Assembly (NCBI RefSeq): GCF_002982015.1
Contig: NZ_PVLV01000085.1
Coordinates: 1-64,000 of the forward strand
DNA length: 64,000 nucleotides
Reading direction: 5' to 3'
From: Streptomyces solincola
GTDB taxonomy: Bacteria > Actinomycetota > Actinomycetes > Streptomycetales > Streptomycetaceae
Part shown: positions 1,512 through 20,943 of the stretch, piece after piece
Numbering within the stretch: position 1 is the stretch's first letter
Layout of the letters: every line of letters begins with the position of its first letter
Notes under the pieces: generated by a model
Told to the model about the DNA's origin: nothing
What the model saw: only the letters and a program-made list of their open reading frames with translations
Database searches by the model: none
Translations under genes and position numbers: made by a program

Positions 1512-2948
1512 ATGCAGAAGTCATGGAACAGCGACCGCCGCCGCACCGCGATCGGTCGCTCCAGCCTCTCCGTACCGGCACGCCAGGCTCTGGCCGACCG
1601 CCAGCTCAACGCGGACCGCACGATCCTCGACTATGGCTGCGGTCGAGGCGGCGACGTCGCCTCCCTCCAGCGCCTCAATTGCAAGATCACCGGTTGGGAC
1701 CCCTACTACAGCTCGAGCACGCCGGTGGCCCCCTCCGACGTCGTCCTCCTCACCTACGTCCTGAACATCATCGAGGACCCCGTCGAGCGTCGGCAGACGC
1801 TCAAGGAGGCATGGAGGCTCGCGACCACCGTACTCATCGTCTCGGCTCGCCTCACCTGGGAGCGGTCCAAAGTCCGCGGCCAGGAGTACGGCGACGGCCT
1901 CCTCACCAGCCGGCAGACGTTCCAGCACCTCTTTAGCCCGGACGAGCTCCGGATCTACGTCGAGGAGGTCACAGGAACACGATGCGTATCAGCGGCCCCC
2001 GGCATCGTGTACGCCTTTAAGGACGACTCAGCCCGACTGGGCTACCTCGCACACCGCATCGTCCCCGACGCCGAGTGGCTCGCTTCAGCCGATACCACTT
2101 CCGCTATCGCCTCGCTGGTCGACTACGTCGAACGGCGTGGCCGTCCGCCCCGTGTCGACGAGATGCCCCGGCCGATGGCCGAACAGCTCGCCCACCTGAA
2201 ACCCGGCGAACTTAAGCGCCTCATACGCGACTCCGTCGACGCCGAGAAGGTCTCCGAGGGCGCCAAGCGCACGACGCTGAACACGCTGCTGTTCCTCGCC
2301 GTCGAGCTCTTCAACGGCCGAGGTCCGTTCAGCAGCCTCCCCCTCGGCGTCCAGCTCGACGTCCGTTCGTTCTTCACCTCGTACAAGGAAGCCTGCAGGC
2401 GCTCCGACCGTCTGCTCCTCAAGCTCCGGGACGACACCTATGTCCGGGCCGCCATGAACGCATCCAGCGTCGGCAAGATCACCCCGACCGCGCTGTACGT
2501 GCACCGCCGGGCGATCGACCGGATGCCGACAGTTTTGCGCCTGTACGAGCACTGCGCCTCCGTCGCCGCTGGCCGGCCTCAGGAATGGACCATCGCCAAG
2601 CTGAAGCACCAGGGGCGAGCCATCAGCTGGCTCGACTACCCGGAGTTCGACAAGGACCCACACCCGCGGATCACTTCCTCGTACCTCGTAGATCTCAAGA
2701 CCCTCGAGACCTCGCACATGTCCTACGCGAACTCTCCTAACCGTCCTTTGCTCCACCGCAAGCACGAATTCCTGGCGCCCGACGACCCGGACGCGCCGCG
2801 TTACCGCCGTCTAACCGAGTTGGAGCTACGCGCCGGCCTCTACGAGAATCCGCACCTGATCGGCACCGAGAATGGCTGGGAGGCCGAACTGATCAGGTGC
2901 GGTCGCATGCTTCGGGGACACCGGCTGGTCCAGCGCCCCGAAGACTGA
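1512..2948 (+). CDS. DNA phosphorothioation-associated putative methyltransferase
   Basis: This 478-aa protein has an N-terminal class I SAM-binding motif (LDYGCGRGGDV, about residues 38-48), a post-I acidic region and a long C-terminal part without known catalytic motifs. The overall pattern and position match the family named DNA phosphorothioation-associated putative methyltransferase, which co-occurs with dnd genes; its substrate is not known. The gene ends 13 bp from the end of dndA and is convergent with it, so it is probably transcribed alone from the left. The start is the ATG at 1512 with a weak GAGG upstream. Family assignment is from recall of the signature and the context. Confidence 0.8.
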   Translation: MQKSWNSDRRRTAIGRSSLSVPARQALADRQLNADRTILDYGCGRGGDVASLQRLNCKITGWDPYYSSSTPVAPSDVVLLTYVLNIIEDPVERRQTLKEAWRLATTVLIVSARLTWERSKVRGQEYGDGLLTSRQTFQHLFSPDELRIYVEEVTGTRCVSAAPGIVYAFKDDSARLGYLAHRIVPDAEWLASADTTSAIASLVDYVERRGRPPRVDEMPRPMAEQLAHLKPGELKRLIRDSVDAEKVSEGAKRTTLNTLLFLAVELFNGRGPFSSLPLGVQLDVRSFFTSYKEACRRSDRLLLKLRDDTYVRAAMNASSVGKITPTALYVHRRAIDRMPTVLRLYEHCASVAAGRPQEWTIAKLKHQGRAISWLDYPEFDKDPHPRITSSYLVDLKTLETSHMSYANSPNRPLLHRKHEFLAPDDPDAPRYRRLTELELRAGLYENPHLIGTENGWEAELIRCGRMLRGHRLVQRPED

Positions 2949-2961: not shown

Positions 2962-4134
2962 TCAGGGGGCATCCGGTTGCATGTACGCGATCATCTCCGC
3001 CAAGCCGTCCGGGTCGAAGTCCGAGACCTGCCCGGGGAACCACGAGAAGCGGAGGCCATTGGTGGCCACCTCCTCCGGGAGGCCCATTGCGGTCAGCACG
3101 TGGCTCGGTGTGTACGAGGCGCTGGTGCATGCGGAACCGGTCGCCACGGCCACCTGGTCCTTGATCCGTACGATCAGGGCCTCGGCGTTGAGCCCGTCGA
3201 AAGTCACATTGAGGATGTGCGGGACCGCGTGGTCGGCATCACCGTTGATCTGGAAGCGGGTCTTCCCGAGCGCGGCGAGCAGCCGCTCCCGCATCTCCTT
3301 CGCGTCCCGTTCCCACCGCGACCGGTTCTCCTGGAAGACCTTGGATGCTTCGTACAGCCCCATAATTAGTGGCACGGGAAGCGTCCCTGGGCGCAGCTTT
3401 CGTTCCTGTCCGCCGCCAAACATGATCGGCTCCAGCGGCACCTTGTCCCAGCCGCGACGCCGGGTCACCAGAGCGCCGATCCCCTTGGGTGCACCGATCT
3501 TGTGGCCGCTGATGCTGGTCAAATCGATGGGCGCCTTCAGGTCTTCGGGAACCTTCGCGTACCCCTGCGCGGCATCGACGTGGAGATAAGTCGGGGTCTT
3601 CTGGAGCTTCTCCGCCAGCTCGGCCACGGGCTGGATGACGCCTGTCTCATTGTTCACGTGCATTAGCGAGACGAGCAGGGTGTCTGGCCTCAGCTTCTCC
3701 AGCACGGCCTCCGTAGAAATCCGCCCCGAGGGGCCGGGCTTGAGGAAATCGACCTCGAACCCCTGCTTCTCCTGCAGATGCAGCAGGGGCTCGATGACCG
3801 CCTTGTGCTCGATAGCGGAGGTGATGATGTGCTTCCGGGCATGCTTCTCGCCGTACGGGGCCATGCCGAGCAGCGCGATGTTGTTGGACTCCGTCGCTCC
3901 ACTGGTGAAGATGACCTCTTCGGTCCTCACACCGACTGTCCCGGCGAGGAACGCCCTGGCCTCCTGGACCGCTTTCTTTGCCCGGGCTCCGTACTCATGG
4001 GTGCGGCTGCCGGCGTTGCCGAAGTCCTCGGTCATCCAGTGGAGCACCACGTCAGCCACCCGCGGCTCCACACGGGTCGTTGCCGCCACATCCAGATACG
4101 CCACCACCGCGCTCACCCATCCCAGAGCAATCAT
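2962..4134 (-). CDS. dndA: DndA cysteine desulfurase
   Basis: This PLP-dependent cysteine desulfurase of the IscS/NifS class has about 390 aa. It supplies persulfide sulfur for DNA phosphorothioation and, in studied strains, also assembles the iron-sulfur cluster of DndC. Visible features are the PLP-lysine motif SGHKIGAPKG (about residue 210), the ATESNN segment and the catalytic-cysteine motif GSACTSAS (about residue 335). It is divergent from dndBCDE, the arrangement known from S. lividans. The ATG at 4134 gives an N-terminal extension relative to homologs. A GTG at 4116 preceded by GGGATGG is a good alternative, because homologs begin just before YLDVAATT. Confidence 0.93.
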   Translation of the reverse strand: MIALGWVSAVVAYLDVAATTRVEPRVADVVLHWMTEDFGNAGSRTHEYGARAKKAVQEARAFLAGTVGVRTEEVIFTSGATESNNIALLGMAPYGEKHARKHIITSAIEHKAVIEPLLHLQEKQGFEVDFLKPGPSGRISTEAVLEKLRPDTLLVSLMHVNNETGVIQPVAELAEKLQKTPTYLHVDAAQGYAKVPEDLKAPIDLTSISGHKIGAPKGIGALVTRRRGWDKVPLEPIMFGGGQERKLRPGTLPVPLIMGLYEASKVFQENRSRWERDAKEMRERLLAALGKTRFQINGDADHAVPHILNVTFDGLNAEALIVRIKDQVAVATGSACTSASYTPSHVLTAMGLPEEVATNGLRFSWFPGQVSDFDPDGLAEMIAYMQPDAP

Positions 4135-4146
4135 CCCGTTACCGGG

Positions 4147-4365: not shown

Positions 4366-5505
4366 GTGGAGATCAAAGCAGCGACACCAGCGACCCGAGT
4401 CGTAGCTCCGCGCACCGCAACGGGGTTCGAGTACACGTTCCCGGCGATCCGCGGCATCCAGGCAGGGCGCGAGTATTACGTCTCGATGTGCCCCCTGCGC
4501 CTCATCCCAAAGATCTTTATCTTCGACGAAGACGAGCTCTCGCCGGAACTGCGCGCCCAGCGGCTCCTCAACAAGGGGCGCCTCCCGGCACTCACGAAGT
4601 ACATTCTGGACAATCCAGGTGATTACGTCTTCAGTGCTTTGACCGCATCCGTCGACGGCGACGTGGAGTTCGACCATCTCGGCTCCGACGGCAACGCCTT
4701 CCGTGCCGGGCAGCTGCGCATCCCCATGGACTCCCGCTTCCTGATCAACGACGGCCAGCACCGGCGCGCAGCCATCGAGCACGCCCTCAAGGAGAACCCG
4801 GACATTGGCAACGAGACGATCGCCATCGTCTTCTTCCACGACGCGGGGCTCGCCCGCTCGCAGCAGATGTTCGCGGACCTCAACCGGCACGCAGTGCGTC
4901 CGGCCCGGTCCATCGGCGTCCTCTATGACCACCGGGACAGCGAAGCCCAGGTCGCGCGCTCGCTGGCCGGCCAGTGCAAGGTCTTCAAGGGCTACGTCGA
5001 GATGGAGAAGAGTACCCTCTCCGCCCGTTCCCGGATGATGTTCACCTTGAGCGCTCTCTACTACGGCACCCAGTCCCTCCTGCAGGGCCTGGAGATCGAG
5101 ACAGACGCCGCAGCCGAGCTGGCGCAGGAGTACTGGGAGCACATCGACACGACGCTTCCCGAGTGGGAGATGGTTCGCAAGCGAGAGCTCTCGGCACCCG
5201 AGATGCGGCGCGACTTCATCCACAGTCACGGCATCGCATTGCACGCTCTCGGCCGCATCGGAAATTCCCTACTTCGGGAATCCACCGCGCCCAGTAAATG
5301 GAAACGGAAACTCTCCCCTCTGAAGAAGGTCGACTGGACTCGGTCAAACACAGACTGGGAGGGCCGTGCCATCGTCGGCGGCCGTGTCTCCAAAAGCCAC
5401 CAAAATGTAACTCTTACAGTCAACTACCTACGCAATCACCTGCGCCTCGGCCTCAGCGCCGAAGAGCAGCGGGTAGAGGACGCATACCTGCGAGGCGAAG
5501 CATGA
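4366..5505 (+). CDS. dndB: DndB, DGQHR-domain regulator of phosphorothioation
   Basis: This 379-aa protein carries the family hallmark DGQHRRAAIE (about residues 128-137). DndB is a non-essential member of the modification system that acts as a negative transcriptional regulator and influences modification sites in studied hosts. The GTG start at 4366 has only a weak AAGG upstream and lies 15 bp from an operator-like palindrome. The gene overlaps dndC in an ATGA arrangement, showing it is the first gene of the dndBCDE operon. The length is usual for the family and no defect is visible. Confidence 0.94.
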   Translation: MEIKAATPATRVVAPRTATGFEYTFPAIRGIQAGREYYVSMCPLRLIPKIFIFDEDELSPELRAQRLLNKGRLPALTKYILDNPGDYVFSALTASVDGDVEFDHLGSDGNAFRAGQLRIPMDSRFLINDGQHRRAAIEHALKENPDIGNETIAIVFFHDAGLARSQQMFADLNRHAVRPARSIGVLYDHRDSEAQVARSLAGQCKVFKGYVEMEKSTLSARSRMMFTLSALYYGTQSLLQGLEIETDAAAELAQEYWEHIDTTLPEWEMVRKRELSAPEMRRDFIHSHGIALHALGRIGNSLLRESTAPSKWKRKLSPLKKVDWTRSNTDWEGRAIVGGRVSKSHQNVTLTVNYLRNHLRLGLSAEEQRVEDAYLRGEA

Positions 5506-7100
5506 GCACCATCCCTCTGCAACTCGGCATCACGCCGGTGCGGCGGAAGCCGTTCGACGGGCGACCCCTCGAAGAGGTCATCGCCAAGCTCTCAGACGAG
5601 GTTCGTGAGCTCTACACCGCCGACCAGGTGCCCTGGGTCATCGGATACAGCGGCGGCAAGGACTCCACCGCTGTCCTTCAGCTCGTATGGAACGCTATCG
5701 CCGCTCTGCCGGCGGAGCAGCGCACCAAGACGGTCCACGTCATCAGCACCGACACCCTCGTCGAGAACCCCGTCGTCGCGGCGTGGGTGACGACATCCCT
5801 GGAGACGATGGAGAAAGCCGCCGCCAAGCAGGGCCTCCCTATCGAGCCTCATCGCCTGACGCCGGAGATCAAGGACACCTTCTGGGTCAACCTGATCGGT
5901 CGGGGCTACCCGGCACCGCGCCCCAAGTTCCGCTGGTGCACCGAGCGCCTCAAGATCAAGCCCTCCAACTCCTTCATTCGGAACGTCGTGGCAGCACATG
6001 GCGAGGCGATCATGGTGCTCGGTATCCGTAAGACCGAGAGCCAGGCGCGCGCCCGTGCCATGGAGAAGCACGAGAAGCGACGCGTCCGTGATCGTCTCTC
6101 CCCCAATGCAAACCTTCCCAACTCCCTCGTCTACAGCCCGGTCGAAGACTGGACCAACGACGACGTCTGGGAATACCTGATGCAGAAGCCCAACCCGTGG
6201 GGCTACAACAATCAGGATCTCCTCACCATGTACCAGGGCGCCTCCGGCGATGGCGAGTGCCCGCTCGTGGTCGACTCGACCACTCCCTCCTGCGGCTCTA
6301 GCCGCTTCGGGTGCTGGACGTGCACACTCGTCGAGCAGGACAAGTCGATGTCGGCGATGATCCAGAACGACGAGGAGAAGGAGTGGATGAGGCCGCTCCT
6401 GGACCTCCGCGACAAGCTCGACGCCCCGTTTGGCTATTTCGAAGAGGGCGAGGAAGGACTCCCCGCCGGCCGGAAGCTCCCGTATCCCCGCCCTGACCAG
6501 CCGGCCCGAGACTTCCGCCGCATGAACGGCAGGGTCATGGTCTACACGCGGCGGACTGATGGCGAAGAGGTCCCGATCCACGGCCCGTACCTGCAGAAGT
6601 TCCGCCAGGACTGGCTCAAGGACCTGCTGGACGCCCAGACGTGGATTCGCGCCAACGCGCCGGAGCACGTCAAGAACATCGAGCTGATCACCCTCGACGA
6701 GCTGCACGAGATCCGCCGCATCTGGGTCTTCGACAAGCACGAGGTGGAGGACTCCCTCCCCCGTATCTACAAGGAGTCCACGGGCGAGGACTTCCCAGGC
6801 GGACCTCTGGACGAGCAGCTCGTCATGGGCGCAGACGAGATGGAGCTCCTGAAGGAGCTCTGCGGGGACGACGACCTGCACTACGACATGGTCCGCGAGC
6901 TTCTCTCCGTCGAGCGCAAGTACCGAACAATGTCCCGACGCGCTGGCCTCTTCCAAGCCCTGGAGACCGCTGTAAAGAAGGGTTACTACGAGGACAGCGC
7001 CGACGCCATCGACTTCGCGCAGCGCAAGAACAAGTGGCGTGAGGAATCGCAGACCCACCTGACCCTGGACGAAGAAACCAATATCGATGCTCCTGCGTAA
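5502..7100 (+). CDS. dndC: DndC, PAPS-reductase-like sulfurtransferase
   Basis: This 532-aa protein has the PP-loop ATP pyrophosphatase motif SGGKDST (about residues 50-56) and a cluster of four cysteines at about residues 253-274 (C, C, C and CWTC) expected to bind a 4Fe-4S cluster. DndC activates and transfers sulfur for replacement of a non-bridging phosphate oxygen in DNA. The ATG at 5502 overlaps the dndB stop, and the C-terminus overlaps dndD by 14 nt. This tight coupling indicates stoichiometric expression of the modification complex. All key motifs are intact. Confidence 0.95.
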   Translation: MSTIPLQLGITPVRRKPFDGRPLEEVIAKLSDEVRELYTADQVPWVIGYSGGKDSTAVLQLVWNAIAALPAEQRTKTVHVISTDTLVENPVVAAWVTTSLETMEKAAAKQGLPIEPHRLTPEIKDTFWVNLIGRGYPAPRPKFRWCTERLKIKPSNSFIRNVVAAHGEAIMVLGIRKTESQARARAMEKHEKRRVRDRLSPNANLPNSLVYSPVEDWTNDDVWEYLMQKPNPWGYNNQDLLTMYQGASGDGECPLVVDSTTPSCGSSRFGCWTCTLVEQDKSMSAMIQNDEEKEWMRPLLDLRDKLDAPFGYFEEGEEGLPAGRKLPYPRPDQPARDFRRMNGRVMVYTRRTDGEEVPIHGPYLQKFRQDWLKDLLDAQTWIRANAPEHVKNIELITLDELHEIRRIWVFDKHEVEDSLPRIYKESTGEDFPGGPLDEQLVMGADEMELLKELCGDDDLHYDMVRELLSVERKYRTMSRRAGLFQALETAVKKGYYEDSADAIDFAQRKNKWREESQTHLTLDEETNIDAPA

Positions 7101-9117
7101 GATCACTCTCGAAGAGTTCGGGGCTTACCGCGGCACCCAGTCGCTGGATCTGACCACCAAGACGAACAAGCCGATCGTCCTCATCGGCGGCCTCAATGGC
7201 TGCGGCAAGACTACCCTCCTCGACGCCATCCAGCTGGCACTGTACGGGCCGCGAGCGCGTTGCAGCGGTCGCGGCAGCAGGTCGTACGAGACGTACCTCC
7301 GCGAGAGCATCAACCGGCAAGCCGACCCCACCCGCGGTGCGCAGATCATCCTGGAGTTCACGGTCACGGTGGACGGCACGGAGCACTACTACAAGGTGGT
7401 CCGCAGCTGGCACACCAGCGGCAAGACGACGCTTAAGGAATTCGTGAACGCGTTCGTCGACGAGGAGTACGGCTCCAGGGCGAAGCCGGGGCGACGCGTC
7501 GAACCTGAGCTGAAGTACAGCCGGGTTCTCAGCCAGGAGTGGGCCGATCACATCGAGAGTCTGCTCCCGCTCGAGGTCGCCTCGCTGTCGTTTTTCGACG
7601 GAGAGAAGATCGAATCGCTCGCCGACCCCGAGCGCGCGGCATCAGTCATCGAATCGGCCATCCACTCGCTGCTCGGTGTCAGCACCGTCCAGCAGCTCCG
7701 TACGGACCTGCTCGCGCTCCAGCGCCGGCAGAAGCTGTCGGACGAAGAGCAGCACCTGATGGACAAGATCCACGCGGAGGAGCAGGAACGGCAGGCGGCC
7801 GACGCCGCTCTGGAGAATGCAGAACAACGGGCCGCGCAGCGCAACAGCGAGCTCGTCAAAGCTCGGCGCACTCTCGAAACGCTGGAGGCTGCCTACAAGC
7901 AGGAGGGCGGAAACCTCTTCGAGCGTCGCGTCGAGATCGAGCACGAGTACGCGCAGGTTTCCGCTCGACTCGCCGAAATCCGCAGCTCCCTCGTCCAGTT
8001 GGCTGCAGGCCCGCTTCCGCTCCTGATGATGGGAAGTCACCTCAAGGAACTGCGCAAGCAGGCTGGTCGCGAGCGGACGGCAGCCGAGTCCCACCAGGTA
8101 CTGGGGGTGCTCGAAGAGCGTGACCAGTGGCTACTGGACATGCTCCCTGACGAGGCGAAGGCCGCTGTAATGGAGAAGCTGGAGGCTGACCGCGCCAAGC
8201 GCGCCAAGTCCGCTGGCCTCAAGGTGGATCTCGGCCTCTCCCCAGACACGCTCCCCCAGCTGTCGGCACTCGACGAGGCACTCAGTCGCGACAAGGCACG
8301 AGCTGCCGAGCTCCTTCAGCAGGCTGCGGAAGCCGCCGAAGAGAGTGTGCAGCTGGAGCGTCAGCTGGCAGGTGTACCGGCCAAGAGCAAGGTCGAGGCC
8401 ATCCAGAAGAAGCGTGAAGACCAGCTCCAGGAAGTCGCACGTCTGGAACGGGAGCACGAGAACAGCCTCAACAACGTCGACGAGTTGAAGCGCCGCCTCG
8501 AATACGTCTCCGCCTCTCTTCAGCGTGCCCATGAAGAGTTCGTTCGCACCAAGGTGAAGGCCGAAGAGGTCGAGCGGATCATCAAGTACTCGGAGAAGGC
8601 CCGGAAGACGCTGGAAAAGTTCGGCGATGCCCTCCTCAAGCGGCACATCAGCCGCCTCGAGGTAGCAATGCTCACGAGCTTCCAGACCCTCATGCGCAAG
8701 CAGGGCCTGGTGAACGACCTCCGCATCGATACCGACAAATTCACGCTCACCCTGGCTGACACCGACGGCCAACCGATCGATCCCGGCCGTCTCAGCGCGG
8801 GCGAGCGACAGCTACTCGCCGTCTCCCTACTCTGGGGCTTGATGAAGGTCGCCGGCAACCGCCTGCCCAGCGTCATCGACACGCCGCTCGGCCGGCTCGA
8901 CAGCCGCCACCGCGAGCACTTGGTGGACCGATACTTCCCATACGCCAGCGACCAAGTCCTCCTTCTCTCCACCGATGAGGAGATCGACGAGTACCTGCTT
9001 GGCCGCCTCGAGAAGTCCGTCGCCCACACCTACACCCTGGTTCACGACGACACCACCTTCACCACCAGCGTCGTCGAGGGTTACTGGTGGAACGTAGGAG
9101 CCAGCAATGTCGCTTGA
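7087..9117 (+). CDS. dndD: DndD, SMC-like ATPase of DNA phosphorothioation
   Basis: This 676-aa protein has a Walker A motif GGLNGCGKTT (about residues 35-44), a long central coiled coil rich in Glu, Ala and Arg (about residues 220-510), an ABC signature LSAGERQ (about 568) and Walker B VIDTPLGRLD (about 595). This is the SMC/Rad50 layout of DndD, thought to nick or open DNA so sulfur can be inserted. It overlaps dndC at the 5' end and dndE by 11 nt at the 3' end. A second, different SMC-like ATPase (14676-16754) lies in the presumed restriction operon. Confidence 0.95.
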   Translation: MLLRKITLEEFGAYRGTQSLDLTTKTNKPIVLIGGLNGCGKTTLLDAIQLALYGPRARCSGRGSRSYETYLRESINRQADPTRGAQIILEFTVTVDGTEHYYKVVRSWHTSGKTTLKEFVNAFVDEEYGSRAKPGRRVEPELKYSRVLSQEWADHIESLLPLEVASLSFFDGEKIESLADPERAASVIESAIHSLLGVSTVQQLRTDLLALQRRQKLSDEEQHLMDKIHAEEQERQAADAALENAEQRAAQRNSELVKARRTLETLEAAYKQEGGNLFERRVEIEHEYAQVSARLAEIRSSLVQLAAGPLPLLMMGSHLKELRKQAGRERTAAESHQVLGVLEERDQWLLDMLPDEAKAAVMEKLEADRAKRAKSAGLKVDLGLSPDTLPQLSALDEALSRDKARAAELLQQAAEAAEESVQLERQLAGVPAKSKVEAIQKKREDQLQEVARLEREHENSLNNVDELKRRLEYVSASLQRAHEEFVRTKVKAEEVERIIKYSEKARKTLEKFGDALLKRHISRLEVAMLTSFQTLMRKQGLVNDLRIDTDKFTLTLADTDGQPIDPGRLSAGERQLLAVSLLWGLMKVAGNRLPSVIDTPLGRLDSRHREHLVDRYFPYASDQVLLLSTDEEIDEYLLGRLEKSVAHTYTLVHDDTTFTTSVVEGYWWNVGASNVA

Positions 9118-9487
9118 GAACATCCGCCTCGCCACCGCAAGTAAGGATCGCCTGAGCCGTCTGAAGCACACCACCGGCATCACCCAGTGGAACGTCCTGT
9201 GCCGCTGGGCACTGGTGCTCTCCCTGGCGGACGCCTCTACCCCCCTGGTTCGTGAGGTCGTCACCGACTCCAACGTCGAGATGTCCTGGAAGACCTTCGC
9301 CGGGCCCCACGGAGACCTTTACCTCGCCCTGCTCAAGCAGCGCTGCGTGGCCGACGGACTAGAGCCGACAGACGAGAACGTCTCCAATACGCTGACGATC
9401 CATCTGGCCCGGGGGGTCGGGTACTTGGGTGCGCACAAGGAGATGACGGCGATCGAGGGGCTGATCGGGGCCGTGACAACCGTCTGA
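9107..9487 (+). CDS. dndE: DndE, DNA-binding component of the phosphorothioation complex
   Basis: This 126-aa protein begins MSLENIRLATASKDRLSRLK and has a GITQWNVLCRWAL segment, both typical of DndE, a small tetrameric protein that binds nicked DNA and completes the DndCDE complex. It overlaps dndD by 11 nt and is followed within 25 nt by a strong terminator hairpin, which closes the dndBCDE operon. Length is typical. Confidence 0.93.
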   Translation: MSLENIRLATASKDRLSRLKHTTGITQWNVLCRWALVLSLADASTPLVREVVTDSNVEMSWKTFAGPHGDLYLALLKQRCVADGLEPTDENVSNTLTIHLARGVGYLGAHKEMTAIEGLIGAVTTV

Positions 9488-9543: not shown

Positions 9544-9618
9544 TACGCCCCACACGATGGCGACCAGTCATCAGAAAACACAGATCCACTTAACTCGTTG
9601 ACACATAAGCTGCCCCGT

Positions 9619-11361
9619 ATGGCATCGGGACACAGCAGCACCTCGCTTCAGCTCTACCTCGTCGGCATCGGTGAGGTCCTGCGCAACAATCGCCTGGTCG
9701 TTCCCCAGTTCCAGCGCTCGTACTGCTGGAAGGTGGAGCAGGAGGTCCTCGACTACTGGACCGACCTGAGCCGGGCGATCAACGGCGGGGCCAAGGAGGA
9801 GTACTTCTTCGGCACGATCGTGATCACCCAGGACGGCGACGGGACTCGGAAGCGGATCATCGACGGCCAGCAGCGGCTGGTCACCTCCTCCCTCCTGATC
9901 GCTGCCATCCGCGACGAGCTGCGAACCCTGGAGGGGAACCTACTCAAGGCGGACGACTCCCAGGCTGTGGGCATCAGCCGCACCTTCCTGGCCAGCAAGG
10001 CATGGAACGACAGGTACGCGGAGTCGCACCTCAAGCTCAACGAGAGCGACAACCCCGACTTCCTCGGGATCACCACCGCGACCGTGCTCCCGGGGAAACC
10101 CGCGAGGACCGACTCCGACATCGTCAAGGCATACCGGTTCTTTCGGGAAAAGATCTCGCAGTTCCGCAGCCTGCATGGGATGGACGCGGCCAACGTCCTC
10201 GAGAAATGGGTGAGCTACATCCAGCACCGGGCGCAGCTCGCCGTGGTCGAGACCCCGACCGAGGCAGACGCCTACGTGATCTTCGAAACTCTCAACAATC
10301 GAGGCGCCGACCTGACCACCGCGGACCTCCTGAAGAACCACCTCTTCGGAGCTGCCGGCGAGCAGCAGAACCTCAACGCGGTGCGGAACAACTGGCACCA
10401 GTCGCTCGGAACGCTCCAACTCGGTGCCGCCGATGCGAAGTTCACCAAGTTTCTGCGCCATTATTGGAGCTCGAAGGTTGGCAAGATCACCGAGCGCGAT
10501 CTTTACGGGGAGATGCGCAAGGAGGTGACGCACCGACAGGAGGCGCTGCACTTCTCGGAGAACCTCCTGTCAACCGCACATGCGTACACCGCGCTCTCCA
10601 ATCCGGAGAGCGACTTCTGGGCGACCAAGTGCAGCGGCAACGGTCACCGTCCCGCTCTCGACACACTCGCCATGTTCGACCTGGTTCCCAACAAGATCCT
10701 CCTGCTTGCGGCAGTCGAGCACTTCCACTCCCACGAGCTCGAGAAGCTCCTCCGGTCCATGGTGAACTGGTCAGTGCGCGGCATGATTATGAGCATGATG
10801 AACCGCGGCCGCTTCGAGGACCAGTACTCTCAGATCGCAGTCGCCATCCGGAAGGGCGAGGTCACCACCACCGCGCAGGTCCGACTGCGCGTCGAGGACC
10901 TCATCCCCTCTGACACCGACTTCAGGGAGCAGTTCGCGCTCGCCACTGTCGGAAGAAGCGATTCCAAGCTTGCCCGGTACTACCTGAGCGCCCTGGAGAC
11001 GACAAGGCGAAAGGAGTCCCAGCCAGAGTTCGTCCCCAACAGCAACCCGAGCCAGGTCAACCTGGAACACGTGTTCCCGCAGAACGCCAAGGAAACCGAT
11101 TGGGAGGACTTCATCAAGAAGAGCGGGGACAAGCAGGACGCCGCCAGCTGGGTCTACCGCATTGGCAACATGGTGCTTCTGCAGACTGGAGTGAACTCTA
11201 AGATCGGGAACAAGTCGTTCGCCGAGAAGGTCGATCTCTTCAAGGCGTCGGGCTTCGAGCTGACTAGAAAGGTCGGCGAGAAGAACGAGTGGACCCCGGA
11301 TAGCATCCGGCTGCGACAGACCGTCCTTGCCGGACTCGCGGTCAAGACCTGGCCGCGCTGA
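9619..11361 (+). CDS. DUF262-DUF1524 nuclease (GmrSD/SspE type)
   Basis: This 580-aa protein has an N-terminal DUF262 domain with the motif IIDGQQRL (about residues 79-86) and the VPQFQRSYCW segment near residue 30. Its C-terminal DUF1524 HNH-type domain is shown by NLEHVFPQN (about 480) and IGNMVLLQ (about 515). This two-domain layout is that of GmrSD type IV restriction enzymes and of SspE, the effector that works with Ssp phosphorothioation. Its position directly after dndE suggests a restriction role sensitive to phosphorothioate status, but GmrSD-like action on modified phage DNA is equally possible. The ATG at 9619 was preferred to upstream starts because the domain begins soon after. 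It has its own transcript. Confidence 0.85.
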   Translation: MASGHSSTSLQLYLVGIGEVLRNNRLVVPQFQRSYCWKVEQEVLDYWTDLSRAINGGAKEEYFFGTIVITQDGDGTRKRIIDGQQRLVTSSLLIAAIRDELRTLEGNLLKADDSQAVGISRTFLASKAWNDRYAESHLKLNESDNPDFLGITTATVLPGKPARTDSDIVKAYRFFREKISQFRSLHGMDAANVLEKWVSYIQHRAQLAVVETPTEADAYVIFETLNNRGADLTTADLLKNHLFGAAGEQQNLNAVRNNWHQSLGTLQLGAADAKFTKFLRHYWSSKVGKITERDLYGEMRKEVTHRQEALHFSENLLSTAHAYTALSNPESDFWATKCSGNGHRPALDTLAMFDLVPNKILLLAAVEHFHSHELEKLLRSMVNWSVRGMIMSMMNRGRFEDQYSQIAVAIRKGEVTTTAQVRLRVEDLIPSDTDFREQFALATVGRSDSKLARYYLSALETTRRKESQPEFVPNSNPSQVNLEHVFPQNAKETDWEDFIKKSGDKQDAASWVYRIGNMVLLQTGVNSKIGNKSFAEKVDLFKASGFELTRKVGEKNEWTPDSIRLRQTVLAGLAVKTWPR

Positions 11362-13694: not shown

Positions 13695-13863
13695 CAGGCA
13701 GCTGTACTGCAATAGTTAAGACACGCTGCCAAGTCGTGCGTGAGGCGCAGGTGACGCCGGCTGACCATCTGGGATCACCTTCAGCGTCTTATCAGGAGTC
13801 GCACAAATTCCGAGCACGTTGCCCCACTCGGCATCAGTGGATTCAGGGCATGAAGCGCTTCGG

Positions 13864-14140: not shown

Positions 14141-14202
14141 AGGTGGGCAGGGTTGATAGCTGTACAGCTTCCGGCTGTCGACCCTGCCCTGAGGTAGCGG
14201 CT

Positions 14203-14676
14203 TTACCAGTCCAGATCAGCGCTGGCGAGGATGTCGCCAACGTCGTCCTTCTCTTCCTCCAGCGGCGTCCTAAGCCCTTCGAGGACGAGGTTCGAGATGA
14301 TTGTGTCGAGGTCCTGGTCGGACTGACGGTTTATTAGAGTCTGCAGGTGGGACAGGCCGGCGTTCGCGTACTCCTCGAAGATGAGAACCCGCTCAGGCTG
14401 GCGGTCCGCGCTAAGGATCTCCGGGTCGGAGGGATACTCGACGGCTCCGAGCATGTCAAGGAGTACCTCCCCGTAGTCTCGGCTCTCCATGAGCGCAAGG
14501 CGGATCGGCTCATCGGCCTCGTCGAACGGCTTGCGCTCGCCTCGGCGGCGGCCGAGCAGTGCGGCGAACATCATCGCCTCGACCATGGTCGCGAACGTCC
14601 CGGTCTTTCTGTCGGTCAGCTTACCGAGCAAGTCCTCATGCGCCCGGGGCCGGCGGAATCGGTCCGTGTAGGCCAT
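14203..14676 (-). CDS. Dnd system-associated protein 4-like (157 aa)
   Basis: This soluble 157-aa protein has a conserved-looking N-terminal segment (RPRAHEDLL, then TMVEAMMFAALLGRR) and an acidic C-terminus. It resembles the small family annotated as DNA phosphorothioation-associated (dnd_assoc_4); molecular role unknown. It is the last gene of a five-gene operon, and its ATG overlaps the stop of the SMC-like ATPase gene. The assignment rests on remembered sequence pattern and context. Confidence 0.7.
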   Translation of the reverse strand: MAYTDRFRRPRAHEDLLGKLTDRKTGTFATMVEAMMFAALLGRRRGERKPFDEADEPIRLALMESRDYGEVLLDMLGAVEYPSDPEILSADRQPERVLIFEEYANAGLSHLQTLINRQSDQDLDTIISNLVLEGLRTPLEEEKDDVGDILASADLDW

Positions 14677-16754
14677 CAGAAGGTCACCTTCTCCAGAACA
14701 GTGTGCTCGAAGTCGCCGTGTGACACGTACGGAACCTCACGGTTGTTGATTACGATCGTCTCTTCACCCGCCGACTGGTTTGGCGTGTAAGAGCGCAGTA
14801 CGTACATCTGATTGGCGGCCTGCTGGAGGTTCTCCAGAACCTTGCCCCGCGCCTGCGACTGCGAGAGCAGGGTGATGATCTGGGATGTCAGCGCCGGCAG
14901 GGCCTTGGAGATCTCTTCCTGATAAGTCAGGTCGAGGCTGCCGAAGGGGGCGTCCATGACGACCGGGTAGACACCGCCGCTGCCGGTCTCGATAGTCGCC
15001 TCCCCCCTATTCTTCTTTCGAGCACTGATGTTCCTGGCAACCTCGGAGACCGCGCCGACGAAGCTGAGGCCGAGGATCTGGTTCTCACCGGTGGAGCGGA
15101 TGGCCACTCCGCTCGCGGTGTGCAGTTCCAGCTCGAAGTCGTCGTTCAGCTCGGGTACGTAGCTCTTGATAAAGATCCGGGAGAAGACCTCCTTGACCTT
15201 CTTGTCGAGCTGGTCGCGGACCTCCTCGGTCTTGATCTCGAGGATCTCCTTCAGCGCGGCACGCACCTTCTCGACGAGCTCGACCTGCTTTTGCACCTTG
15301 CGGGCCTTCTCGCTCTTGACCTCAGCATTCCGGTACTGACGTCCTGTGGCCTCTGCCTCCTGCTTGATCGAGGTGACCTTGTTCTCAGCCTCCTTGTGCG
15401 CGACACGGGCGTCGGTCTCCTTGGAAGCGTAGTTCTTCCGGCGCTCGATGAGGCGCTGGACGTCCTGGATATTCACCCCCTCCAGCTGCCGATCGACATC
15501 GGAGCGTTCCTCTTCCAGCTCGCTGATCTCTGCGTCCGCCTTCTGAATGTCGGAAGCGTTGAGGGTGAGCTGCTCCAGGATTTCCTGGCGCCTCTCCTCC
15601 AGGTTCTTCATCTTGCCGCTGACCCGCATCCAGCTCTCCTGGACGTCCTCGAGGCCGGCGTTGTACTTGCGCTTGTCCAGCTCCTCGTACTCTTGGGTCC
15701 CCTCGCGGACCTCACGGCCGCACAAGCACAGCTGGGCTTCGAGGATGTCCTCGATGAAGCTGCGCTGGATGCCTGCGGGCAACTGGCGGCGCTCTCGCAT
15801 CTCGTCTGCGAGCTCAATCACCTTAGTGTCGATCCCGCTGGTCAGAGCCAGGAAGCCGTGCCGCGACAGCAGCTCGCGCTTACGGCTCTTGTACTCCATG
15901 TGCCGGTCGTGCGCGGCCTTGATCCGGCGGGTCAGCGAGTCACGCTTCTTCTGGAGCGGCTCCGCCTCCCTGTTCTGGAGCAGGGCGCGGTCAATGGCCT
16001 GGACTTCCTTCTGGAAGGCGCTGATTTCGCCGGAGAGGCGCAGCATCTCTGCAACCTCTTCCTTCTCGCGGGTGGCGAGGTGGTCCATATGGTCGGACAG
16101 CTGCTTCAGCCTGCTGTCCTCCTTGGAGTCGATCTCGCTGGCGAGCTTTCGGGAGACCTTCGGCAGGTCCTCCAGAGCACGCTCGATGGCCTCCAAGTCG
16201 AGAAGGGTCTTGATGGCCTTCTGGACCTCCTGGTTCTTGCCTTCGCCTTCCCGCTTCACGTCGCCGGAGAACATCTTCTCCATGCGCTCACCGTTGAAGA
16301 AGAAGAACTGACGCAGGCCCTTGGGCAGGATCTTCTCGATCCGATCCTGGCCGTTGAGGATGCTCTGGGCTTCGCCATCCGTCCCGATCTCCGTGACCGT
16401 CAGCTCAGGCTCGACTGGCTCCTGCTCCGCCTTCTCCTTGATAACAGTGACGTGCCGGACCACGGAGAACCGGGTCCCGTCGTGCTCGAAGTCCAGCCGA
16501 ACGGAGGCCGTGATGTCCTCCCCGAACGCCGTGTCGGCCCATGCCTTGTCGTGAATGACGCGATGCTGCTGTTCCACGTCTTCCGAGAAGGTGCCGTACA
16601 GGGCCCAGGCGAACGCGTTGAGCAGGGTGGTTTTGCCGGCACCGTTGTTACCGAAGATGAGGACGGCGGGCTTGCCCTCCTCCACAGACAGGTCGAGAAC
16701 CTGCTCACCGTAGAAGGCGCGAAAGTTCTTCAGCGTCAGCTTGAGCAGCTTCAC
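14676..16754 (-). CDS. SMC/DndD-like ATPase of the restriction operon
   Basis: This 692-aa ATPase has an N-terminal KLLKLTLKNFRAFYG start, Walker A GNNGAGKTT (about residue 36), long coiled coils, a CLCG motif near residue 343 that may act as a zinc-hook-like turn, a signature-like region (ILGLSFVGAVSE) and Walker B VVMDAPFGSLD (about 597). It is the Rad50/SMC fold and resembles DndD in layout, but it is encoded apart from dndBCDE, next to a helicase-nuclease. That suggests a DNA-sensing motor in restriction rather than modification. It overlaps both neighbours. Confidence 0.87.
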   Translation of the reverse strand: MKLLKLTLKNFRAFYGEQVLDLSVEEGKPAVLIFGNNGAGKTTLLNAFAWALYGTFSEDVEQQHRVIHDKAWADTAFGEDITASVRLDFEHDGTRFSVVRHVTVIKEKAEQEPVEPELTVTEIGTDGEAQSILNGQDRIEKILPKGLRQFFFFNGERMEKMFSGDVKREGEGKNQEVQKAIKTLLDLEAIERALEDLPKVSRKLASEIDSKEDSRLKQLSDHMDHLATREKEEVAEMLRLSGEISAFQKEVQAIDRALLQNREAEPLQKKRDSLTRRIKAAHDRHMEYKSRKRELLSRHGFLALTSGIDTKVIELADEMRERRQLPAGIQRSFIEDILEAQLCLCGREVREGTQEYEELDKRKYNAGLEDVQESWMRVSGKMKNLEERRQEILEQLTLNASDIQKADAEISELEEERSDVDRQLEGVNIQDVQRLIERRKNYASKETDARVAHKEAENKVTSIKQEAEATGRQYRNAEVKSEKARKVQKQVELVEKVRAALKEILEIKTEEVRDQLDKKVKEVFSRIFIKSYVPELNDDFELELHTASGVAIRSTGENQILGLSFVGAVSEVARNISARKKNRGEATIETGSGGVYPVVMDAPFGSLDLTYQEEISKALPALTSQIITLLSQSQARGKVLENLQQAANQMYVLRSYTPNQSAGEETIVINNREVPYVSHGDFEHTVLEKVTF

Positions 16755-16936
16755 TTGGTCAGCTCCCTCACGGCGTCGACGATCTTCGGGACGACCTTGG
16801 TTGTCTCCCTGATGTGGATGTTCTCGGTCTCCAGGTCGATGACCTTCTGGACGAGGATCTTGGCTTCCCGCGGCAGCTCGTTCAGGACGTCGCGCACCGT
16901 TCGTGCGGGAGGCTGGCCGGCTGTTTCGTCGCTCAC
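16751..16936 (-). CDS. Small helical protein in the restriction operon (61 aa)
   Basis: This 61-aa protein is predicted mostly helical, with the segment REAKILVQKVIDLETENIHI suggesting a short coiled coil. The GTG start has a good ribosome binding site (AGGAG, 8 nt upstream), and the end overlaps the start of the SMC-like ATPase gene. The tight coupling suggests it is an accessory subunit of that ATPase. No family was recognised. Confidence 0.75.
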   Translation of the reverse strand: MSDETAGQPPARTVRDVLNELPREAKILVQKVIDLETENIHIRETTKVVPKIVDAVRELTK

Positions 16937-16996
16937 GGATTACTCCTGGTTCGAGGTAGCGGGTACGGAAGGAATGGGGGTACTTGCAGTGAGGGC

Positions 16997-19147
16997 TCAG
17001 GTGTCGAAGAGGCCGTAGCGCTCGCGCACGGGGCGGAGGACATTGAGCGTGTCCCCCTCGTTGTCAGCGAGGTAGGCGAACTCTTCGACGCGAGCCAGTT
17101 CGCGACGGAGCAGGCTGCGTTCGGTCTCGTACTGAATCGCGTCCCCGCCCGCAGGCGGCACGACGACGAAGTCGATGATGTCCGCGCGCTTCTTGCCGGG
17201 CGCCTTACGCAGGACGCGGCCGCGGCGCTGGATGAACTGGCGGGGGTTGGAGGAACTGGACAGGAGGTAGGCAGTCCGGGAGGCCGGAATGTCCACGCCT
17301 TCGTCCAGGCAGCGCATGGAGGAGATGACCTGGAGGTCGTTGTTCTCGAAGCGGCGCAGAATGTCCAGGCGGGCCGAGCGCTTGGTCTCCGAGGTGTAGC
17401 GGGCAGCGGGCATGTGCAGCTCGTTGCCGACCATCTCCATGACCTGGTCAATCTGACGTGGGCCGTCGATGCCGTGTTCGTAGAGAAGGGGATGCTTGCC
17501 CTCGGCGCAGTAGATCAGCTGGTGGCTGGTGTCCCGGCGCCTCTCGATCTCCGCGTGGAGGATCTCTAGCTTGCCGCGGGCGTGGCCGATGATGTCGGCG
17601 CGCTTCTTCAGAAGTCGGCCGAGCGGGCTGTCCCGGTCGGCGGTCTCCTTCAGGTCTGTGCCGCCCGCGATCAGGCGGGCGATCTTCGCACTGGTCTCTG
17701 CGTACAGTTCGGCTTCTTCGTCGTCCAGCTCCACGAGGATGGGCGTGTAGGTGTAGCGGCACAGGGCGCTACGGCGGATGGCTTCGCCGATGCCCATCTC
17801 GAAGACGACTCGGTCGAAGTAGTCGGTGAGGGCGTCGGTGCCCTCCTCATCGAACCAGCGCTCCGGGGTGGCGGAGAGGCCGAGGCGGTACTGGGCCTTC
17901 TCCGGGAGGCGGGTACGCAGGTGCGCGGCGCCGAGGTTGTGGGCCTCGTCCGCGATGAGGAGGAGGTGCCCCTGGTAGGAGCTGAGCAGGTTCTTGAAGG
18001 CATCGCCGCCGAAGGTGGCGTTGGTGGTGACAATGACGCCGCCTCGGGTACCGCCGAGGGCGATGTTCTGGAGCAGGCTGTGAGCGCGCGGGGACCATCT
18101 GCTGGTCGCCTCGTAGGCCCGCAGCGGTGTCACGCCGAACCACTCGATGTCCTTGGCCCATTGGTCGACCAGATGCTGGTACGGGGCCACGACGACGGTG
18201 AGGAGTGAGACGGATGCATCGTTCTTCCGAAGGAGCGTGCCGAGTTGGGAGGCAGCGGAAAGTGCGGTCAGGGTCTTGCCTGTGCCTGTGGCCATGCGGA
18301 GGATGCCTCGGCACTGGTTGCGGAACCAGTTCTGGACAGCTTCCTTCTGGTAGTCGCGAACCTTCAGGCTAGGCGGGATCGCAAGCGTGCCAGGAGGAGG
18401 CAGCGGCGTGGTGCGGATGGGGGTTCCGCCGGTCGGGAGGTCGTCCAGCTCGTACTGGTCGGCGGTGGCCCGGGCGCTGCGCTCGACGATCACCTTGGCG
18501 GCATCGGTGAACGGGATGACGCGCAGCATCTGCGTGCGGTTCTCCCAGAGGTCATCGAAGTCCTTGCTTATGCGCGCGGCCCGGCGTTCATCGCTCGGGT
18601 CCCAGCTCCGATAGACCTCGATCGCCTCGAAGTTGCCAACGAGACCGGAGCGGGTCTCGTTGGCGCTGCCCTTGAAGGCGATGACGTCTCGGCCGTCCCG
18701 GAAGACACCGATCTTCTCGTGGTACATGCCGACGCGACCACGCTCTTCGACATAGGCCAGCTTGAAATCGACTCGGTGCTCGGCGACCAGTCGTCCGAGC
18801 TTGCCGAGGCCGCGGGCTGCCCGCGCGTCCTCGACCGCCTGTTCCAGGTCGCGGAGGGCAGCCCGCTGGAGGACTTTGCGCAGCTCGTAGCCGTCCTCAA
18901 TGTCCTTGATGTCGGCTGGGTCAAGGTAGGGGGAGGCAATGATCCGCATGGTGCCGCCGCGCGAGGTGAACTCGTCGATTCCCTGCCCGAGCGTGGCGAT
19001 CACGGAGGCGGCGAAGTAGCCCACGGCCCGGTCGTAGGCGGTGGAGGCGGCGAGGGCAGGCAGGTAGAAATCCTCGACAAGGTTGTTGCGGTCGCTGCGG
19101 TAGTCGGACTCCGCGCCACAGTCGCGGAGGAAGGGGGAAGCCGACAT
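16997..19147 (-). CDS. DNA phosphorothioation system restriction enzyme: PLD nuclease fused to SF2 helicase
   Basis: This 716-aa protein has two parts. The N-terminal phospholipase D-like nuclease domain carries YHEKIGVF with the HxK motif (about residue 140), followed by FKGSANET. The C-terminal superfamily 2 helicase shows motif I ATGTGKT (about 290), motif II DEAH (about 397), motif III LSATP and motif VI QRRGRVLR (about 637). This architecture fits the family named DNA phosphorothioation system restriction enzyme. It would translocate on and cut DNA lacking the host phosphorothioate pattern. The start overlaps the upstream stop (TGATG), so translation is coupled. Confidence 0.88.
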   Translation of the reverse strand: MSASPFLRDCGAESDYRSDRNNLVEDFYLPALAASTAYDRAVGYFAASVIATLGQGIDEFTSRGGTMRIIASPYLDPADIKDIEDGYELRKVLQRAALRDLEQAVEDARAARGLGKLGRLVAEHRVDFKLAYVEERGRVGMYHEKIGVFRDGRDVIAFKGSANETRSGLVGNFEAIEVYRSWDPSDERRAARISKDFDDLWENRTQMLRVIPFTDAAKVIVERSARATADQYELDDLPTGGTPIRTTPLPPPGTLAIPPSLKVRDYQKEAVQNWFRNQCRGILRMATGTGKTLTALSAASQLGTLLRKNDASVSLLTVVVAPYQHLVDQWAKDIEWFGVTPLRAYEATSRWSPRAHSLLQNIALGGTRGGVIVTTNATFGGDAFKNLLSSYQGHLLLIADEAHNLGAAHLRTRLPEKAQYRLGLSATPERWFDEEGTDALTDYFDRVVFEMGIGEAIRRSALCRYTYTPILVELDDEEAELYAETSAKIARLIAGGTDLKETADRDSPLGRLLKKRADIIGHARGKLEILHAEIERRRDTSHQLIYCAEGKHPLLYEHGIDGPRQIDQVMEMVGNELHMPAARYTSETKRSARLDILRRFENNDLQVISSMRCLDEGVDIPASRTAYLLSSSSNPRQFIQRRGRVLRKAPGKKRADIIDFVVVPPAGGDAIQYETERSLLRRELARVEEFAYLADNEGDTLNVLRPVRERYGLFDT

Positions 19148-20943
19148 CAGATCAATCCCAGGTGGTTCATGAGGTCGTCCACGTCGGGGGCCTCGTCGAC
19201 GGGGTGGGGCTGCTGCTCAGCCGACGGATCGGTCTGAGCGGTGCGGGCTGCGGGGACAGCTGCTTCCTCGGAGCCAGTGTCCAGGTCTTCAGCTATACGG
19301 CGGACCATCCCTCCGCGTGCGGTGAAGGGCGCAATGGACATGGCGGCCCGCAGGCTGGACTCCTTGATGTCGAAGTCTCGGCGGAGAAGCGCCACGACCT
19401 TGTCTGCCTCAACCTGGCCGCCGTGCGCATCGACCATGTCAGAGATCAGTTCCTTGATCGGCTTGTACACCGGGAGGTGCCACTCGGTCAGCGCCCACTG
19501 GTTCCGCTGGCTCCGGCTGAAGCGGGCATCCCCTTCGATCTGCTGCCGGAGATACTGAATCCCGATGGCGACGCCCGTGCGCTCCTTCAGCTCCTCGACA
19601 GTCAGCGGGGTGTCCGCCTCGCGCAAGGCGGCCTCCACCTTGTCGAGGCGCTCGCGCTCACGCTGAAGCCCGCCGCGCGAGCCGACGCCGCTGGCAGCCT
19701 CGGTGGTCGAGGCGGACGCTTCTTCTCGGGAGAAAAGTCCCTGGGCCGGGATCGCCGCAGCGGAGGGTGCAGTCGAGTCGGAACCGTTCTGGAGGCACCA
19801 GGCTCCCCTGGCCGTGATCGCGAAGCGCGCATCCGTGAAGAGCGCCTCTGTCACTTCTCCCTGTGGCACGACTCCGTCCAGTGCACCCTCGATGAGCGAG
19901 GTGCTCATGCCCTCAGCGCAGCCTTCGAGGAGCTGCGCGATGAGGTCTCCGGGCGACGCCTCCAGACCCGCTTCGCCGGCATCCGCCAGCGTGCCTGCAA
20001 GTGGAATGGATCCGTCACTCTCTGCTTCCCTGTTTTTGACTTCCTCGGCCGCACTCGAAGGGCTATTACCCTCCGTAGCATTTTGCTCCGCCGAGGTTCC
20101 TTCGCCTCGCACTGCCCGACGCCGCTCGGAATCGGTGGAGCGATCCGGCACAACCCAGCCCTCACCCGCCGTGAAGGTGGCGTCGCGGAGCATGCGCGAG
20201 ACCACTCCAAGCTCCCCGTCCGCCGTCTCCGCCTCACCAAGAAGGTCACCAAGAGTAATAATGCTCTCGCCGTCTTTATTTACCAACAGGAGGGCAGACA
20301 GCTGCTCGACCAGCTCTGACAGCCCGCGAAAGACGACAGCGGTCTCAGTCGGCTGGGGCTTGGAGCGAGTCAACGAGATCTGGTTGCCCTTACAGTCAAG
20401 ACCGCAGTGGATCAGCCACTGACGCAGGGTGTCGAGATCGCTGGGGACAGGCACCTGGCGTGCGTCGAGAAGAGCGGAGGCTGTCGACAGGCTCATCACC
20501 TCGTCGACATCAAGATCAAGGGCTCTCACCGTGGCGGCGCCACACTCTTTCAGATCATCCATGAAGATCCACTGTCCGGTCGGGGACGCTGAGGTGGTCG
20601 CGTCCAGCCAGCGCATGCCGGTGAACAGGCGGAGGACGGTTAGCGTGTCCCCAATGTTCTCGCCAAGCCAGGCGTGGCGGTCCAGAAACGTACTGACGAG
20701 GCAAGGTTTCCGCAGGTCAAGCTCCGCATGCTCTATCCAGGCACGCAGTATCAAATCCCCCTCGACACTGCGGTTGAACTCGTCCATGAGGAAGTTTCGG
20801 CACTGCCGCGCAGTCTCCCGAAGAAGGGCATGCTGAGAAGCAAGTTCGCCCAGCGGAACTGGAGCCTCTGCGCAGAAGTGCTGCAGGACGAGGTCCCGGT
20901 TGAAGCTGCTGAGCCCCTTGTACCAACGGTCGAATGCGTTCAT
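19147..20943 (-). CDS. HTH protein with sigma-region-4-like N-terminus, first gene of the restriction operon
   Basis: This 598-aa protein starts at the ATG at 20943, where similarity to known folds begins; an upstream ATG at 21000 is possible. Residues 10-55 (NRDLVLQHFCAEAPVPLGEL and following) resemble region 4 of sigma-70 factors. A second winged-helix-like segment lies near residue 440 (TPLTVEELKERTGVAI). Between them is a low-complexity Glu/Ala/Ser linker (about 290-420), and the C-terminus is an acidic tail ending DLMNHLGLI. It may be the DNA-recognition subunit of the restriction complex or a regulator. The stop overlaps the helicase start. I do not recognise a named family. Confidence 0.75.
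   Translation of the reverse strand: MNAFDRWYKGLSSFNRDLVLQHFCAEAPVPLGELASQHALLRETARQCRNFLMDEFNRSVEGDLILRAWIEHAELDLRKPCLVSTFLDRHAWLGENIGDTLTVLRLFTGMRWLDATTSASPTGQWIFMDDLKECGAATVRALDLDVDEVMSLSTASALLDARQVPVPSDLDTLRQWLIHCGLDCKGNQISLTRSKPQPTETAVVFRGLSELVEQLSALLLVNKDGESIITLGDLLGEAETADGELGVVSRMLRDATFTAGEGWVVPDRSTDSERRRAVRGEGTSAEQNATEGNSPSSAAEEVKNREAESDGSIPLAGTLADAGEAGLEASPGDLIAQLLEGCAEGMSTSLIEGALDGVVPQGEVTEALFTDARFAITARGAWCLQNGSDSTAPSAAAIPAQGLFSREEASASTTEAASGVGSRGGLQRERERLDKVEAALREADTPLTVEELKERTGVAIGIQYLRQQIEGDARFSRSQRNQWALTEWHLPVYKPIKELISDMVDAHGGQVEADKVVALLRRDFDIKESSLRAAMSIAPFTARGGMVRRIAEDLDTGSEEAAVPAARTAQTDPSAEQQPHPVDEAPDVDDLMNHLGLI

Follow-up and report, generated by a model that had tools for sequence, protein, structure and literature searches.

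The stretch of DNA examined here, hereafter the window (positions 1 to 64,000 of contig NZ_PVLV01000085.1 of Streptomyces solincola, 64,000 nucleotides in all), carries a complete dndABCDE cassette for the phosphorothioate (PT) modification of DNA and, beside it, an operon of five open reading frames (ORFs) on the minus strand, running from 20943 to 14203. To judge from its sequence, this operon is an actinobacterial form of PbeABCD, a known PT-dependent anti-phage module, led by an additional gene that is here called gene 5. The four-gene module is already known, and the new part is the recurrent fifth gene. It appears probable, if by no means assured, that PbeABCD and dndABCDE are here extended by a co-translated fifth subunit, with gene 5 serving as a DNA-docking or sensing subunit of PbeA.

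The initial annotation of the window had placed the five genes correctly and had taken them for an effector module other than DndFGH beside a complete dnd set, a pairing that recurs in related genomes. It had also proposed an undescribed restriction complex, which is not supported, as four of the five genes are clearly orthologous to a named defence system and stand in the same order. That system, PbeABCD, was the one the annotation had named as the nearest concept. The idea of a new subtype therefore rests on the fifth gene.

Four pbe genes beside a dnd cassette

PbeABCD was described as a run of genes for a PLD (phospholipase D)-ResIII-helicase protein, a 66-aa protein, an AAA protein and a 152-aa protein (Xiong 2019, PMC6459918). 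When haloarchaeal genes were tested in a haloarchaeal host, the system was found to require PT, and each of the four genes contributed, pbeA in part. In the absence of PT it showed no notable toxicity, and it inhibited replication while viral DNA stayed intact. Pbe was later classified as a CxC ABC (ATP-binding cassette)-ATPase/DndE-anchored system, in which PbeC carries the CxC hook and PbeD is a relative of DndE, and it was argued that PbeA cleaves while the ATPase-DndE pair scans (Rakesh 2024, PMC10853773).

The PbeA of the window scores 862 bits against the PADLOC PbeA profile and has the Pfam domains PLDc_2, ResIII and Helicase_C. As to the earlier assignment of the helicase-PLD fusion to the phosphorothioation restriction family, it scores 590 bits against TIGR04095 (NCBIfam), just below the 600-bit cut-off. 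Among ten aligned homologues, residues H143, K145, D151, G160, S161 and N163 are invariant, as are those of the helicase motifs ATGTGKT, DE-H and QRRGR. PbeC scores 911 bits with its PADLOC profile, and the cysteines of its CxC hook, C343 and C345, are likewise invariant in ten aligned homologues. The annotation had called this protein a second SMC (structural maintenance of chromosomes) ATPase; it is an ATPase, but a CxC-type ABC ATPase in the classification of Rakesh 2024 (PMC10853773). It was not named DndD because its dndD equivalog score, 158, lies below the cut-off of 245.85.

The 157-aa protein, which had been likened to a dnd-associated family, matches TIGR04062 (NCBIfam) with 94.2 bits, above the cut-off of 74.25, and is thereby PbeD. 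Its AlphaFold2 (AF2) model has a pLDDT of 88.5 and finds DndE as its top structural matches in the PDB (Z 8.7-9.2, with a Foldseek E of just about 0.1), followed by chains of the F-plasmid relaxosome (Z 5.3-6.3); the PbeD profile had no match among PDB sequences. The 61-aa protein had no family match in NCBIfam, Pfam or PADLOC scans, and homologous ORFs lie between pbeA and pbeC in six of the eight loci L036-L043, so that it is identified as PbeB by position and size only. Its ratio of nonsynonymous to synonymous substitution rates (dN/dS) against L036, a colinear locus, is 0.04. As read from their sequences, then, four of the five genes correspond one by one, and in the same order, to PbeABCD, with the domains of PbeA, the small ORF between, the CxC PbeC, the DndE-like PbeD and linked dnd genes all present.

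The DndCDEA-PbeABCD system (PMC6459918) has the same order of PbeA, small ORF, PbeC and PbeD beside dnd genes, with PbeB and PbeD of 66 and 152 aa there and of 61 and 157 aa here. Unlike that system, the window has a gene upstream of pbeA, a dndB and a DndI-like effector, and it belongs to a bacterial genome. The CxC PbeC, the DndE-like PbeD, the small PbeB and a PbeA that joins an HKD nuclease domain to a superfamily 2 (SF2) helicase are shared with the CxC ABC-ATPase/DndE-anchored system (PMC10853773), whose available text mentions no sigma-like protein upstream of PbeA; the single mention of "sigma" there concerns a helix-turn-helix (HTH) inserted in a DndH variant.

Neighbouring genes overlap at three of the four junctions of the operon: by 1 nt between gene 5 and pbeA (TGATG at 19147), by 4 nt between pbeB and pbeC (16751-16754) and by 1 nt between pbeC and pbeD (14676). 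A gap of 60 bp separates the end of pbeA (16997) from the start of pbeB (16936), so that "fully coupled", as the operon had been called, is too strong. The dN/dS values of the five genes against L036 (0.04-0.32) indicate that they are real.

There are dnd genes in the fetched stretches of 14 of the 15 close five-gene loci, the window included, and also at the more divergent locus L202; the sole close locus without them, L043, is a 9.8-kb contig. At 94.8% and 93.5% identity, the whole dnd-dndI-pbe stretch is colinear with L036, a locus from the window's own genus. The exception is a segment of 2.8 kb in the window (11362-14166), where dndI and pbeD converge, that is missing from L036; two ORFs in it match a transposase or an integrase weakly, below the cut-off.

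The DndI-like gene, a second PT-dependent effector, had been left out of account in the annotation. It combines DUF262 with a DUF1524 HNH domain beside dndBCDE, as expected of DndI; it is matched by PADLOC as Orf5/HEC-06, and the closest solved structure is DndI itself (9jfl, E 2.9e-23, 85.5 bits). Since it directly follows dndE and the pbe genes lie beyond, a single modification set serves two PT-dependent effectors. A DndI relative following dndBCDE is also found in IscS-DndBCDE-DndI (PMC11662687); unlike there, the DndI-like gene of the window coexists with Pbe, and dndFGH is absent from the window ORFs scanned.

The absence of dndFGH, noted before, stands for the window ORFs scanned (1512 to 21000). 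Genome-wide, the profiles dnd_assoc_1, 2 and 3, which we take to be DndFGH, gave no match, but they gave none in 14 control genomes either; dnd_assoc_2 had matches under cut-off only, in two of the 293 genomes of the order.

Gene 5 and its place upstream of pbeA

The window copy of gene 5 matched no NCBIfam or PADLOC family, its sigma region 4 is not recognised by Pfam or NCBIfam, and it has a weak match to the winged HTH (wHTH) of PaaX, below the cut-off. In a profile comparison with hhalign, its N-terminal block aligns with the block that carries sigma-4 in its relatives (probability 95, E 3.9e-8, against a probability of 1 for a control block), and on sequence grounds the earlier label of "sigma-like HTH" is right in kind. 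The AF2 model is poor, with a mean pLDDT of 41 overall; residues 135-190 and 431-550 show a winged-helix-like order of elements at a pLDDT of about 50-84, depending on the block.

Longer relatives (L042, L043 and L051) have sigma-70 region 4 over the Pfam cut-off, matches to the C-terminal domain (CTD) of the RNA polymerase alpha subunit that exceed the cut-off solely in L042, and weak HARE-HTH matches. In a Pfam scan of 15 gene-5 or sigma-type upstream proteins, in which some matches were under cut-off, seven had both sigma-4 and the alpha CTD, all of them upstream of pbeA, five had sigma-4 alone and three, including the window copy, had neither. A sigma region 2 was matched neither in the window copy, where even region 4 goes undetected by Pfam, nor in those relatives that were scanned. 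The frames of the family span 353-1297 aa. The sigma-4 block of several relatives also matches MzaA of the MZA system (NF041931), with no more than 45 bits where the cut-off is 800; this block is all that they match and the window copy is not matched, so gene 5 was not taken for MzaA.

Gene 5 ends in the short amphipathic sequence VDDLMNHLGLI. A tail of this kind is found in 15 of the 16 pbe-linked gene-5 proteins (the exception is L202) and in two of 30 relatives not upstream of pbeA, a comparison set that includes two beside pbe genes elsewhere (L040 3452-6310 and L188). Among other ORFs, the pattern occurs in 2 of 996, or in 16 of 1089 when the gene-5 ORFs themselves are counted. With a dN/dS of 0.32, against 0.04-0.15 for seven other cassette genes, gene 5 evolves fast yet under purifying selection, which fits the expectation for a sensor. 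No description of it was found in the text of the open-access papers searched.

In all 15 loci in which it adjoins a close pbeA, the stop of gene 5 overlaps the predicted pbeA start, one of which is a TTG (L177), by 1 or 4 nt. PbeA is present in 10 of the 293 genomes of the order sample, nine of which have a gene-5 match directly upstream of pbeA; the tenth, G271, has a divergent PbeA (35%) and no gene 5 upstream. The class sample yielded PbeA in 6 of 296 genomes, four of them with gene 5 directly upstream; G668 has a relative of gene 5 on the opposite strand beyond pbeC, and G697 has none within the 1.3 kb of sequence upstream of pbeA. The window's genome is counted in both samples. In the phylum sample, TIGR04095 had ten matches in 9 of 296 genomes, and four besides the window's own were examined (L202-L205). 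Three of these, L202, L203 and L204, have a divergent PbeA together with pbeC; a weak match to gene 5 (65 bits) overlaps pbeA in L202, and the other two have no gene 5. Taken together, the divergent actinobacterial PbeA loci (L044, L188, L201, L202, L203 and L204) have gene 5 upstream in one case of six, the weak match of L202.

Beyond these samples, at least 80 PbeA-matching loci from named genomes were found, and 65 (L050-L114) were kept for counts; the other 15 (L115-L129, best E 9e-19 or weaker) were set aside as general helicases before counting. Among the matches listed, gene 5 is present in 2 of the 65 loci, both actinobacterial. To judge by these sequences, gene 5 characterises a single actinobacterial clade of Pbe and seldom occurs elsewhere.

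An upstream ORF (the longest same-strand ORF of at least 60 aa near each pbeA, some of which are not genes) could be examined in 60 of the 65. In five of them (L070, L071, L084, L096 and L105), it runs into the pbeA frame and matches sigma-4, with an alpha CTD in four of the five and some of the Pfam matches under cut-off; four of these loci are from Bacillota (L105 from Lacticaseibacillus), and L070 is an unassigned metagenome-assembled genome. In a search restricted to these ORFs, the gene-5 profile matches the five weakly, with E-values from 1.1e-7 to 0.014. In a quick PbeA tree of 75 rows, built without bootstraps and leaving out short or split PbeA (e.g., L105 and L144), the sigma-type upstream gene requires 4 changes, against a mean of 17.1 after shuffling, and none of 500 shuffles was as low. 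All 14 actinobacterial rows of the window's clade have a sigma-type gene directly upstream. The tree and the five further loci together thus point to an association that is stable in this clade, with the same or a parallel one elsewhere.

Relatives of gene 5 also occur away from pbe. In two genomes of the window's genus, one lies between drmMI and drmA of DISARM class 1, directly upstream of drmA; both have sigma-4 and no alpha CTD in the Pfam scan. The window genes scanned are, by contrast, not DISARM genes: those adjoining the operon matched other families, no whole-window drm search having been made. Some relatives are on plasmids beside mobile-element genes. Because the A5 profile catches ordinary sigma factors (it matched 284 of the 296 class-sample genomes, such factors included), only 20 stretches around stronger matches were examined. 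Two BLAST matches to gene 5 were dismissed: that in L047 (G111), where the protein is the large subunit of a molybdopterin dehydrogenase, and that in L048 (G228), which matches the same short stretch, were both taken as chance.

A probable docking or sensing subunit and its alternatives

The most likely role of gene 5, as far as its sequence can indicate, is that of a DNA-docking or sensing subunit for PbeA, because of its overlap with pbeA, its largely pbe-restricted tail, its HTH units and the parallel place of its relatives beside the SF2 helicase DrmA. The identities of PbeA, PbeC and PbeD, that of PbeB by position, the gene order, the dnd linkage and the overlap, domains and tail of gene 5 are direct observations, around which the following scheme can be drawn. 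DndABCDE would put sulphur marks on host DNA, which PbeC and PbeD, the ABC ATPase and its DndE-like partner, may scan. PbeA, with its helicase and HKD nuclease, would be the effector that blocks the replication of DNA lacking the right marks, possibly by cutting it, and PbeB may be a small regulator. The HTH units of gene 5 could keep the complex on DNA, while its C-terminal peptide would bind a Pbe protein.

Several points weigh against this scheme. The haloarchaeal prototype works with four genes (Xiong 2019, PMC6459918), and gene 5 is therefore not essential to Pbe as such; the same paper observed no cleavage of viral DNA. Four of the divergent actinobacterial loci (L044, L188, L203 and L204) lack an upstream gene 5, as does L201 within 1.3 kb, and around many relatives of gene 5 a search limited to Pbe, Drm and Dnd genes found none of these. 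The tail pattern was composed after the tails had been viewed, the structure model is poor, and the binding of PbeA is a prediction. Finally, sigma-4, the alpha CTD and the first position in the operon suit a transcription regulator equally well.

That gene 5 is such a regulator is the main rival explanation, and an unlikely one. The Sigma70_r4 and RNA_pol_A_CTD matches of its relatives, the wHTH-like units of its model and its place as the first gene of the operon all fit. However, sigma region 2 goes unmatched throughout the proteins scanned, the window copy has lost a sigma-4 recognisable to Pfam, and the frames reach lengths of 353-1297 aa; moreover, it is pbeA that gene 5 overlaps, and the tail is mostly confined to the pbe-linked members. 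It has also been considered that gene 5 displays the parts of RNA polymerase that phages attack, sigma region 4 and the alpha CTD, as a decoy, so that a phage takeover protein which bound or modified them would free the PbeA nuclease. Phage proteins bind sigma-4 or modify the alpha CTD. The two modules occur together in 7 of the 15 scanned proteins, all seven upstream of pbeA and with some matches under cut-off, gene 5 evolves fast, and a viral trigger has been proposed for PbeB (Rakesh 2024, PMC10853773). The decoy is nevertheless a proposal without direct evidence; the window copy retains no more than a degenerate sigma-4, an alpha CTD was not detected in it, and both DISARM-linked relatives show sigma-4 without the alpha CTD. 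We regard it as improbable, and give equally little credence to its fuller version, in which the tail would connect the mimic to the PbeA nuclease and a sigma-4-bearing relative would have been reused upstream of DISARM. If true, the sensing of phage attack on host transcription would be common to several bacterial defence systems.

It is very improbable that gene 5 is unrelated to pbe, a mobile DNA-binding gene that hitch-hikes upstream of it. Relatives do exist without Pbe, Drm or Dnd nearby, some of them on plasmids beside mobile-element genes, but the overlap with pbeA in 15 of 15 loci, the retention of the gene along the PbeA tree, the near confinement of the tail to pbe-linked members and the purifying selection all speak against this. 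Least probable of all is that the operon is an independent defence system standing beside dnd by chance. Neither dnd nor ssp was found in the stretch of 26 of the 65 PbeA loci among the matches listed, several of them on cut contigs, and 320 of 553 PbeAC had no nearby dndCD (Xiong 2019, PMC6459918). Yet PT dependence was demonstrated in that same work, dnd accompanies nearly all the close five-gene loci, and dnd, dndI and pbe are colinear with their relative L036 at 93-95% identity.

As a co-translated Pbe subunit, gene 5 would mean a correction to surveys in which Pbe is counted as four genes. On how PbeABCD stops phages the two papers differ: Xiong 2019 found no cleavage and Rakesh 2024 predicts it. 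A fifth gene that is conserved in one clade, paralleled in some Bacillota and has relatives beside DISARM suggests that PT defence may be linked to transcription-like DNA binding. By their description, comparable modules exist in BREX (PMC12839542), where PglW has an alpha-CTD-like domain and wHTH units and BrxL has a sigma-HTH-like domain; unlike gene 5, these are fused to kinase or AAA+ domains.

Features of the window and further observations

Table 1. Genes of the dnd-pbe region of the window and the basis for naming them.
Feature	Position	Strand	Basis
PT-associated putative methyltransferase	1512..2948	+	TIGR04096 522 bits, cut-off 150
dndA, cysteine desulfurase	2962..4134	-	TIGR03235 543.5 bits, cut-off 480
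dndB, dndC, dndD, dndE (PT modification)	4366..9487	+	TIGR03233 548, TIGR03183 731, TIGR03185 733 bits; Pfam DndE 126 bits
dndI-like putative nickase (DUF262/DUF1524)	9604..11361	+	GmrSD_N and GmrSD_C over cut-off (ORF scanned from 9508)
pbeD (157 aa), DndE-like putative DNA-binding partner of PbeC	14203..14676	-	TIGR04062
pbeC (692 aa), CxC-hook ABC ATPase	14676..16754	-	PADLOC PbeC
pbeB (61 aa), small protein	16751..16936	-	position and size
pbeA (716 aa), HKD/PLD nuclease domain and SF2 helicase fusion	16997..19147	-	PADLOC, Pfam
gene 5 (598 aa)	19147..20943	-	degenerate sigma-region-4-like N-terminus, predicted winged-HTH units, disordered linker, C-terminal tail

Among the PbeA loci listed from named genomes, 22 of 65 have an SspC-like gene upstream of pbeA on the same strand, mostly in Bacillota and Bacteroidota. 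These are L055, L079 and 20 others between L053 and L098, and an SspB accompanies the SspC-like gene in all but the cut contig L053. PADLOC recognises SspB, SspC and SspA in L055 and SspB, SspC and SspD in L079. This Ssp-Pbe pairing was not found in the text of the open-access papers searched.

In L040, a second gene-5-like frame of 952 aa (3452-6310) overlaps pbeD at its end, and relatives of gene 5 thus flank pbeABCD on both sides. Three loci with a divergent PbeA (L091, L094 and L112) have BLAST-related proteins upstream of pbeA that share an RRxSN-like motif near the end. Tandem pairs of gene-5 relatives occur in the actinobacterial loci L180, L181 and L141, with no Pbe, Drm or Dnd gene nearby (other defence families not sought). 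A remote PbeA-like protein lies near drmA and drmB, on the same strand, in the actinobacterial locus L205 of the phylum sample. In the window itself, an ORF with an HD domain (21214-21642) lies on the opposite strand just upstream of gene 5.

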